Assembly (NCBI GenBank): GCA_030427885.1
Contig: JAUICM010000004.1
Location: 186,001-250,000, forward strand
Direction of reading: 5' to 3'
Source: Rhodothermia bacterium
GTDB lineage: Bacteria; Bacteroidota; Rhodothermia; Balneolales; Balneolaceae
Length of the DNA: 64,000 nucleotides
Each line of letters opens with the position of its first letter. Positions within the stretch are counted from its first letter, which is position 1. Below the pieces are notes generated by a model. It was not told the origin of the DNA. It saw only the letters and a list, made by a program, of their open reading frames with translations, and searched no databases. Of this stretch, positions 3,270-40,559 are shown piece after piece. The translations under genes and the position numbers were made by a program.

Positions 3270-3774
3270 GTCACCCTGAGCGCCCGTAAAGTTGAGACGA
3301 CTAATTAGAATTCGCGAAGGGTATCAAATGTAGAATTATTTGTTATGTTTTTCACGAATACCAACCTTCTGTTAAATCTTTCCAACAGGGATTCATTGTT
3401 TCAATAAGAGCTACTTTCTTTGCTCTTCTCCATCCTTTGATTTCTTTCTCTCGTTCTATTGCCCTACCTATATCATCTGTATCTTCATAATATACCAATT
3501 GGTAGAGGTTATACTTCTTAGTGTATCCTGGATAAAGTTTTTTTTTGTGTTCATATATTCTGCGTTCCAAGTCGTTGGTAACACCGACATAAAGCATCTT
3601 TGAATTGTTACTGAGTATGTACACATAATAAGTTTTAGCCATACTTGTAAGACCTTCTATCTCCCAACTCCTTACAGATGATTCTTCGTAACGTAAAATT
3701 TATGCTTAGTACAAGTTTGATACCTTTCGCTATGTATTTCGAGCTTTTGAAAAGCTAAGGGAGCTCAAGGTGAC
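3270..3774. mobile_element. Candidate GIY-YIG element bounded by imperfect inverted repeats
   Basis: The arm at 3270-3329 begins GTCACCCTGAGCGCCC and ends GCGAAGGGTATCAAATG. The arm at 3716-3774, read on the other strand, begins GTCACCTTGAGCTCCC and ends GCGAAAGGTATCAAAC. The two arms of about 59 bases are thus imperfect inverted copies, and a single small GIY-YIG nuclease gene lies between them. The arm sequence belongs to the same style of repeat as the REPIN-like units elsewhere in the window. Whether the 505-base unit moves as a whole is inference. Confidence 0.55.
3352..3642 (-). CDS. Small GIY-YIG nuclease family protein (type 1)
   Basis: This 96-residue protein is a stand-alone GIY-YIG domain of the YhbQ-like group. 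It shows YYVYIL (the GIY equivalent), LYVGVTNDLERRIYEHK (the YIG-equivalent strand with the conserved arginine), and REKEIKGWRRAKKVALIE with the helix bearing the metal-binding glutamate. Relatives are annotated as putative endonucleases; their cellular role is not settled. The gene lies alone between inverted repeat arms, 22 bases from the left arm and 73 bases from the right arm, unlike an ordinary chromosomal gene. It differs clearly in sequence from the second GIY-YIG gene at 39821-40198. Confidence 0.9.
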   Translation of the reverse strand: MAKTYYVYILSNNSKMLYVGVTNDLERRIYEHKKKLYPGYTKKYNLYQLVYYEDTDDIGRAIEREKEIKGWRRAKKVALIETMNPCWKDLTEGWYS

Positions 3775-5911: not shown

Positions 5912-6800
5912 TCCTCCTGAAGCTTACCCATCGCTTCCTACTCCTCTATTTCTGGTACCGGATTATGTTTAGGAGTCCCCTCCCCTGAAGTCAGGGGAGG
6001 GGTCTCAACAGGGTGAAGTGTTAAAATAGGAGTCAGGTAACACACCCCTAAATCCCCTCTCCAGAGGGGACTTGGAGTTTAGTCACTCAGAGCGAAGCGA
6101 AGAGCCTGCACAAAGTTATTGCTGGCCAGGTTGTTGTGCAGATCCGTCACCCCTCGGCAAGCCCGGGGTTCTGGATGACTGGAATTAGAGAGCCAGGTAT
6201 GAATGTTATTATTAAGTCCCCTCCCCTGAAGTCAGGGGAGAGACAGAGAGGGGTCTTTCAAGGGCTGGGAGATATAATTATTGGTACCAAACTCCACCAA
6301 AGGTTCATGCCCATATTTATGGTACTTTTGAGCGACTCCCGATCTGCATCGGGACAGGCGCCAGTACCCCAAAGTCGCCGTAAGAAATGAAGATGTTGTT
6401 CTTTTGAGGCGCTGTTCTTCGTTCATTGACTGGATACTTTCGGACTTTCATTACGACCATACCGCATTTCTTCCGGTCGTAGTTTTGGAGGTAGATCCAA
6501 AGAATTTTCAACCCCACCAAAGATCAGTAAAAGCGTAAGCTTGATAACGAAGTCCCCTCCCCTGAATACAGGGGAGGTACAGGGTGGGGTCTTTCAAAGG
6601 CTGGGAGATATACTTATTGGTACCAAATTCCACCAAAGAGTCATTCTGAGTGGCAACGAAGAACCTTATCGGCGGAATGAATGCAACTCTTAACAAGGCT
6701 TTTTCCTCCTGAAGCTTACCTATCGCTTCGTACTCTTCTATTTCTGGTGCCGGATTATATTTAGGAGTCCCCTCCCCAGACACTGGTGAGGGATTTTAAC
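5912..6800. repeat. Left repeat cluster flanking the lectin/defence segment
   Basis: The 5870-6909 stretch has no gene but is packed with repeats. A segment of about 70 bases beginning CCTCCTGAAGCTTACC at 5912-5985 recurs at 6714-6775. C/G-rich units lie at 5973-6077, 6213-6260, 6548-6594 and 6765-6790. A REPIN-like unit lies at 6082-6179. A long unit at 6251-6493 (GGGTCTTTCAAGGGCTGGGA... to ...TTTTGGAGGTAG) recurs at about 21704-22075, and its first part is repeated at 6585-6690. Short open frames here follow the repeats and are not called. Confidence 0.8.
6082..6179. repeat. REPIN-like inverted-repeat unit, 98 bp
   Basis: It begins GTCACTCAGAGCGAAGCGAA and ends CCCGGGGTTCTGGATGAC. The two ends are imperfect inverted copies (GTCAxxCAGA..., with CTGCAC/GTGCAG internal arms), so the unit folds into a long hairpin. 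Near-identical 98-base copies lie at 22246-22343 and 22496-22593. Confidence 0.75.
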
Positions 6801-22245: not shown

Positions 22246-22343
22246 GTTACTCAGAGCGAAGCGAAGAGCCTGCACAAAGTTATTGCTGGTCAGGTTGTAG
22301 TGCAGATCCGTCACCCCTCGGCAAGCTCGGGGTTCTGGATGAC
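22246..22343. repeat. REPIN-like inverted-repeat unit, 98 bp
   Basis: Begins GTTACTCAGAGCGAAGCGAA and ends CTCGGGGTTCTGGATGAC. Same length as, and nearly identical to, the copies at 6082-6179 and 22496-22593. It is the hairpin part of the first tandem unit. Confidence 0.75.
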
Positions 22344-39758: not shown

Positions 39759-39842
39759 GTCATCCAGAGCGGAGCGAAGGATCTGCAAAGATTATAATCT
39801 GGAACCAACGCTGTGCAGGCTCATCGCTTTGCTCTGAGTGAC
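39759..39842. repeat. REPIN-like unit, 84 bp, left copy beside the second GIY-YIG gene
   Basis: Begins GTCATCCAGAGCGGAGCGAA and ends TTTGCTCTGAGTGAC; the ends are inverted copies. It is almost identical (two or three differences) to the unit at 40222-40305 and in the same orientation. It overlaps the last seven codons of the GIY-YIG gene. Confidence 0.8.
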
Positions 39843-40198
39843 TCTTTACTTTTTTTCATATAGTTCTGAAAATATGGGTCTTTTAAAACATTTACCGGAG
39901 GCCACTCTCCTACAATTTCTTTATTCAAGAATTTCCAATCTGGATTAAATTCAGAAATCAACTTCTCTTTCCATTTTCTGGACTTTCCTTTAATTCTTTT
40001 TTCTGCTTCAATTGCTTCAGTCATAGATTCGAAAAGATCATAGTAAACAATATTGTAGCAATAATTTTTACCAGCAAAAGATCGGTTTGTACCTTTATCG
40101 AGATAATGCTCAATTGCTCTTCTGGCTAGTGCGTTGGTGGTCCCAGTGTATAGAACAGTACGGTTTGGGTTCGTGACTATGTAAACGGCATAATCCAT
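39821..40198 (-). CDS. Small GIY-YIG nuclease family protein (type 2)
   Basis: 125 residues. The GIY-YIG domain occupies 1-95: YAVYIVTNPN, VLYTGTTNALARRAIEH with the conserved arginine, and EAIEAEKRIKGKSRKWKEKLI with the metal-binding glutamate. A C-terminal extension of about 30 residues (VLKDPYFQNYMKKSKESLRAKR) is longer than in type 1, and its last residues (ESLRAKR) with the stop codon are read out of the dispersed repeat at 39759-39842. The gene lies between two direct copies of that 84-base repeat. It is not a close copy of the gene at 3352-3642. An endonuclease function is suggested by family; the partner substrate may be the repeat itself (inference). Confidence 0.88.
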   Translation of the reverse strand: MDYAVYIVTNPNRTVLYTGTTNALARRAIEHYLDKGTNRSFAGKNYCYNIVYYDLFESMTEAIEAEKRIKGKSRKWKEKLISEFNPDWKFLNKEIVGEWPPVNVLKDPYFQNYMKKSKESLRAKR

Positions 40199-40221
40199 GC
40201 CTAAATGTAATAAAAATAGTT

Positions 40222-40305
40222 GTCATCCAGAGCGGAGCGAAGGATCTGCAAAGATTATAATCCGGAACCAATGCTGTGCAGGCTCATCGCTTTGCTCTGA
40301 GTGAC
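40222..40305. repeat. REPIN-like unit, 84 bp, right copy beside the second GIY-YIG gene
   Basis: Begins GTCATCCAGAGCGGAGCGAA, ends TTTGCTCTGAGTGAC. It starts 24 bases upstream of the GIY-YIG start codon and is a direct repeat of 39759-39842. Confidence 0.8.
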
Positions 40306-40309
40306 TTAA

Positions 40310-40462: not shown

Positions 40463-40559
40463 GTCATCCTGATCTGCCAGCTGGCGGAGAATGATCTTAT
40501 CGGGGAATAAATTGGGATACCTTACAACGATAAGGTTCTTCGCTATCGCTCAGAATGAC
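40463..40559. repeat. REPIN-like inverted-repeat unit, 97 bp
   Basis: Starts GTCATCCTGATCTGCCAG and ends CGCTATCGCTCAGAATGAC; same architecture, length and right arm as the unit at 35904-36000. Confidence 0.7.

Follow-up and report, generated by a model that had tools for sequence, protein, structure and literature searches.

A small GIY-YIG nuclease gene between direct REPIN copies in a Balneolaceae genome and its probable partnership with GTC-tagged repeats

REPs have been sorted into the GTAG and CGTC superfamilies, and CGTC REPs, which occur in several phyla and include dRS3 of Neisseria (CGTC-1), begin their 8-9 bp stems with A-T pairs, carry mostly CCA tails and 'apparently lack a dedicated transposase' (Di Nocera et al. 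2013, PMC3733652). The hairpins described here share with them an unpaired (C)GTC tag, an A-T start of the stem, a short unpaired tail, an intergenic location and a mostly head-to-head dimeric arrangement, found as REPIN halves A and B in the window (the whole stretch of DNA analysed, 64,000 nucleotides from a Rhodothermia bacterium of the Balneolaceae) and in its relatives. They differ in that the tag is mostly GTC with a varied preceding base, and in that many stems contain a GA/GA mismatch step and a GNA-type loop. The GTC tag and the AT-initial stem are present in half A of the window; half B and some relatives deviate at the second base of the stem, and the tag may begin with a base other than C. 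Tails are mostly CT or TCT in the Bacteroidota hairpins, with CCA at proteobacterial loci. CGTC REPs were described without a dedicated transposase, whereas here a GIY-YIG gene appears as the partner.

As in the RAYT/REP system, the window locus has one gene between REPs that match its subtype, together with dispersed non-autonomous REPINs and orphan repeats that persist. It differs in having a GIY-YIG fold instead of an HUH motif with a catalytic tyrosine, and a GTC instead of a GTAG repeat tag, so that the window nuclease, which would resemble RAYT/REP by function, is not a RAYT member. GIY-YIG homing endonucleases of the group I intron type have the catalytic domain and, probably, selfish spread in common with the window gene, but the latter is free-standing, lies in no intron and is accompanied by repeats that are duplicated whole. 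The closest solved chains by sequence are UPF0213/YhbQ proteins (PDB 1ywl, 1zg2; a distant match, E=9.4e-9), yet UPF0213-like genes mostly lack flanking repeats (present at one of the five in our sample).

Another close counterpart is Ssn of Neisseria and other bacteria, reportedly presented in Nature Communications in 2025 as a group of GIY-YIG nucleases with many homologs that are specific for single-stranded DNA and target the neisserial repeat NTS. Ssn is said to cleave single-stranded DNA and to affect transformation, and the role reported for the Neisseria relative is control of gene exchange. In both systems a small GIY-YIG protein has a dispersed repeat that is cognate to it, and the linkage of the two is found here as well. 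The system described here differs in its many subtypes per genome, its gene-in-REPIN elements, the length of its direct duplications and a sister class tied to tRNA genes. If the Ssn work covers the Bacteroidota linkage, the window gene is a new member of that group, and this prior publication lowers the novelty of the linkage; subject to the same coverage, we would call new the gene-in-REPIN architecture, the empty site with a long duplication and the tRNA class. Among the publications that we searched, none links GIY-YIG proteins to REPs or REPINs.

The window nuclease gene encodes 125 aa on the minus strand (39821-40198; ATG at 40198, TGA ending at 39821), and its translation matches the Pfam GIY-YIG family with E=3.8e-12 (46.8 bits against a cut-off of 22.6). 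Its catalytic signature is intact (Y6, Y17-x-G19, R27, H31, E66, N85); Y6, Y17, G19, H31, E66 and N85 are near-universal among 44 relatives of the same class (class R, below), and R27 is found in 41 of the 44. The sole match in an NCBIfam search was a group I intron endonuclease model, far below its cut-off. In 29 sister pairs, the nucleases have a median dN/dS of 0.11 with no value above 1, which indicates purifying selection.

The gene lies between two whole REPIN copies and not inside one. The upstream copy (40222-40305, 84 bp, GTCA...TGAC) stands 24 bp before the start codon, and the downstream copy (39759-39842, 84 bp) covers the final six sense codons together with the stop; aligned as 39759-39843 and 40222-40306, the two direct copies are 98% identical over 85 bp. 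The sequence-only reading had described this arrangement, including the distance of 24 bases and a last stretch of seven codons read from the repeat, and our analysis agrees, the seventh of these codons being the stop. In each unit half A faces half B: half A (GTCATCCAGAGCGGAGCGAAGGATCT) lies at 40222-40247 on the plus strand, where its subtype is also the one that adjoins the nearest homologs, and half B (GTCACTCAGAGCAAAGCGATGAGCCT) at 40280-40305 on the minus strand. In the downstream copy half A is at 39759-39784 (plus) and half B at 39817-39842 (minus), the latter providing the C-terminal codons and the stop. Both halves consist of GTC, a short stem, a GA/GA step and a GC-NNN-GC loop, and although their stems differ, ATCC/GGAT in A and CTCA/TGAG in B, each of them pairs. 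A further related REP half near the element (GTCATTCTGAGCGATAGCGAAGAACCT, 40533-40559, minus strand) is only a candidate as regards this nuclease.

In the 4.15 Mb genome the 84 bp unit finds matches at no more than 16 places, about eight of them nearly full-length, as expected of a REPIN, and the next best genomic copies are 81% identical, so the flanking pair is more than chance. The repeat of the window's own subtype is rare, with seven exact halves besides the about eight near-full units, which counts against a partnership of nuclease and repeat; one REPIN pair (G000:C5, 549-550 kb) encloses an unrelated 212-aa frame and no nuclease. As DNA, the whole 85-mer folds better than its shuffles (z -2.58); the isolated window half-hairpins were no more stable than shuffles with standard DNA parameters. 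Such parameters may give no credit for GA steps and GNA loops.

A second small GIY-YIG gene in the window (3352-3642, minus strand, 96 aa) is of a different subtype, with a TGTAAGG..CTTACA leader, and lies between inverted, GTC-tagged long hairpins, one upstream (3719-3774, minus strand, stem ACCTT/AAGGT) and one downstream (3270-3325, plus strand, stem ACCCT/AGGGT). The third GIY-YIG gene of the window (304 aa, at 34.4 kb) is without such repeats. The earlier count of two repeat-tied genes out of two small GIY-YIG genes therefore holds within the window and falls short for the genome, where the 16 GIY-YIG matches are UvrC, a protein of 304 aa and about 14 small genes. The majority of these small genes lie among repeats, for example in an inverted perfect 27-bp pair (L005) or at duplicated tRNA 3' ends (L007-L009).

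We compared 79 small GIY-YIG genes, 65 from related genomes and 14 from this genome. Matching repeats were present in both flanks of 61 of the 79, compared with 15 of 249 other genes at the same loci and 8 of the 62 among these others that are isolated by wide gaps. With labels based on sequence motifs and closeness to tRNA genes, in part judged by eye, the sample divides into 44 class R genes (mostly 95-125 aa, REP-like hairpins in the flanks), 30 class T genes (mostly 80-90 aa, usually after a tRNA gene) and the five UPF0213-like genes. In a second set of 80 named Bacteroidota loci, which shares a few Balneolaceae genomes with the first, 67 of 74 loci had flanking repeats, and a GTCA-stem-loop-stem-TCT hairpin was found within 450 bp at 34 of 74 loci against 6 of 222 control stretches; with permuted tags, 0-1 of 74 loci were positive.

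Nuclease and repeat subtypes correspond. Among 839 non-syntenic, cross-genome class R pairs, the proportion with similar flanks (at least 40 bits) rose from 0% at a nuclease similarity below 0.35 to 29% at intermediate values and 80% at 0.7 or more; none of 2000 permutations within genomes matched this correlation. Beside the window nuclease's four nearest homologs (68-78%) lie the same asymmetric half-repeats, half A (GTCATCCAGAGCG..CGAWGGATCT), half B (GTCACTC.GAG) or both. The window half-A pattern occurs in 7 of 18 genomes with this nuclease clade and in 4 of 227 without it, a weaker link than in the sister subtype S5 (below). A looser pattern for the window clade, TCATCCTGAGCN{2,8}GCGAAGGATCT, was rejected as too unspecific (8/18 genomes with and 18/227 without the clade); it misses the window's own REPIN.

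Co-occurrence is clearest for S5 (repeat CCTGAACTTGTTTCAGG / ATCCTGAACTTGTTTCAGGATCT). Across 245 genomes of the class, the repeat is present in all 19 nuclease genomes (2-39 copies each) and in 20 of the 226 others (Fisher p=7e-18, genomes treated as independent); a genus-stratified permutation within four mixed genera reached this in 0 of 20000 trials, and a reversed-pattern control gave zero in every genome. Some of the exceptions hold a more distant relative of the nuclease (G042, 119.5 bits; G163, 126 bits), and two, with 66 (G094) and 15 (G055) S5 repeats, have no S5 nuclease even at E<=1e-12. The repeats of these two genomes are best read as orphan repeats, as for orphaned REPs, the G094 population being either orphaned or served by a different mobiliser. 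Both checks named by the sequence-only reading, subtype correspondence and repeat number with and without the nuclease, thus came out in favour of its proposal, RAYT/REP-like co-evolution of nuclease and repeat by subtype, with the exceptions given above.

S5 elements also document presence and absence. Unlike the window gene, the S5 gene lies inside a REPIN: GTCATCC[TC]GAACTTGTTTC[AG]GGATCT is followed by a TGTAAGGA..TCTTAC leader hairpin, the gene and an inverted hairpin whose end is GATGAC, which together span about 400 bp. The stems covary over 68 distinct sites (TCCT/AGGA, TCCC/GGGA, TGCT/AGCA, TTCC/GGAA, CCCT/AGGG), with 98.9% Watson-Crick pairs. At one locus within a single genus, three genomes carry the element (G016, G041, G044), broken by stops and an insert in G016, and a fourth (G042) has the uninterrupted site; G042 has a single copy of the flanking terminator hairpin of about 55 bp, and in G016 and G041 a copy lies at either end of the insert, as a direct duplication. 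The empty site in G042 could have arisen by deletion between direct repeats. A second element (L178) is absent between the same genes in three further genomes; the corresponding locus in G039, considered as another empty site, was rejected, as it holds a broken copy. For the window element we found no empty site: 24 relatives have amylase orthologs without the element, but the junction is not shared, because the dipeptidyl-peptidase neighbour is not conserved. Two S5 elements (L286 in G040, L285 in G068) lie 3' of the same amylase gene that adjoins the window element, which points to repeated use of the intergenic space behind this gene.

The observations that bear on function are linkage, subtype match, conserved hairpins and catalytic residues, purifying selection and the presence or absence of a sister element at one site. 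Judged from these and by analogy with RAYT/REP, the window gene probably encodes a site-specific GIY-YIG endonuclease that acts on the flanking GTC-tagged hairpin, nuclease and repeat forming one selfish unit; cleavage and transposition by the protein are what we infer from sequence. Each REP half would form a hairpin with an unpaired GTC foot, and the nuclease would nick this foot on the GTC side in single-stranded or extruded DNA. In a REPIN, two such nicks on opposite strands at the outward GTC ends would give a long staggered opening, into which the nuclease cassette would be copied; once the gaps were filled, the cassette would be bordered on either side by a complete, directly repeated REPIN, just as in the window (GTCA to TGAC, 84 bp). 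At a terminator or tRNA gene, the duplicated part would be the hairpin target, and REPINs without a gene would be the non-autonomous, MITE-like form.

A broader version is conceivable and is put forward tentatively: free-standing GIY-YIG nucleases may mobilise the entire CGTC-tagged REP superfamily across phyla by paired nicks at REPIN GTC ends, leaving whole-REPIN or terminator duplications, and a sister branch may target tRNA genes and terminators, one isotype per clade. The data offer CGTC REPs, reported without a transposase (PMC3733652), a specific GIY-YIG partner matched by subtype. If this partner does mobilise them, two nuclease folds of unrelated origin have independently given rise to REP mobilisation, and the small GIY-YIG genes, usually named only by family, are selfish elements with an influence on intergenic DNA and on tRNA loci. 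Ready pairs of nuclease and repeat, with occupied and empty sites and compensatory hairpin variants, make mobilisation directly testable.

Class T bears on a homing-type alternative, in which the enzyme breaks both strands at a repeat or tRNA site that is still unoccupied, and homologous repair with the repeats as arms copies the gene in, with no dedicated strand transfer. A tRNA gene lies within 300 bp of 19 of the 30 class T genes, and in 15 of 19 cases the nearest nuclease in another genome is found at the same tRNA isotype. This isotype fidelity, the duplicated tRNA 3' ends and the weak similarity of small GIY-YIG proteins to group I intron endonucleases all fit homing; the flanks, however, are whole duplicated REPINs and not one split target, and repeats have spread without the gene as well, to as many as 66 copies, which makes homing an unlikely account. 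Class T genes (e.g., L007, L008, L009, L016, L055, L057, L060, L070, L076, L080, L092, L094, L095 and L107, among others) stand directly 3' of a complete tRNA gene and its terminator, and the tRNA 3' part and terminator are often repeated after the gene.

Homologs outside Bacteroidota are evidence for the selfish-unit reading and also bear on a role in gene exchange. A search of plasmid records with a class R protein returned mostly proteobacterial homologs, and among the 12 loci examined, GTC-tagged 8-bp hairpins occurred within 500 bp of the gene at eight and in the outer 1 kb at one; some homologs lack REPs (L310, L313, L315, L316), which counts against the selfish-unit reading. CGTC REPs are present on both sides in Neisseria gonorrhoeae, Azospirillum lipoferum, Shinella, Novosphingobium, Rhizobium and Sphingobium, and an Aeromonas homolog is flanked by them as well. 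The gonococcal homolog, 44% identical to a class R relative, has dRS3-type REPs on both sides. The nuclease might recognise REPs and serve to control gene exchange, cutting incoming single-stranded DNA at REPs and so limiting or shaping transformation, with repeat spread as a side effect. The same linkage in Neisseria, where single-stranded DNA cleavage and an effect on transformation are reported, and purifying selection on the nuclease genes speak for this, but presence and absence of gene-in-REPIN elements, duplications of about 55 bp and several, partly broken copies per genome look like a mobile element, and we regard such a gene-exchange role as unlikely. In Azospirillum lipoferum (L309), the GIY-YIG gene and its CGTC REPs are inserted between sufB and sufC; in Planktothrix agardhii (L313), a GIY-YIG gene lies between an MmeI-type restriction gene and DISARM drmA.

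The direct REPIN copies could also stem from tandem duplication of a REPIN, with the gene caught between them without any action of the nuclease. Other small GIY-YIG genes of the genome do lie in tandem arrays of 130-200 bp repeats, with units of about 200 bp in L002 and about 130 bp in L010 on both sides of the GIY-YIG genes. In L198 and L199, however, half A precedes the start codon by a short distance and half B sits at the stop codon, where it is likewise found in L201; this conserved placement points to an old, kept architecture and renders a chance tandem duplication quite improbable. Passive association, in which nuclease genes persist solely where intergenic DNA is rich in repeats or the gene uses its repeats just as terminators and stability hairpins, is highly improbable, since the non-syntenic subtype match, the per-genome co-occurrence and the excess over isolated control genes already disfavour it, even though REPs are intergenic, could act as RNA hairpins and sometimes flank control genes (15/249).

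Apart from the selfish-unit reading, which we prefer, several features of the repeats and leaders are of interest. Two near-identical 40-bp GTC-tagged hairpins in the window (GTCATCCAGAACCCCG[GA]GCTTGCCGAGGGGTGACGGATCT; 6140-6179 and 22304-22343) represent a further REP subtype. A leader hairpin, TGTAAGGA-N12-20-TCTTAC, lies directly before the start codon of the window gene at 3352-3642, of L001, L002, L004-L006, L013 and L015, and of many relatives; its strict form occurs in 21 of the 44 class R genes and in none of the 30 class T genes, and an Rfam search of nine nuclease loci, leader hairpin included, gave no matches. This leader might serve in translational control or be a DNA target. Three S5 elements (L172, L176, L089) keep the outer stem of the 3' hairpin but have another hairpin (e.g., GATCCGCCAGCTGGCGGAC) in place of its loop or inserted into it.
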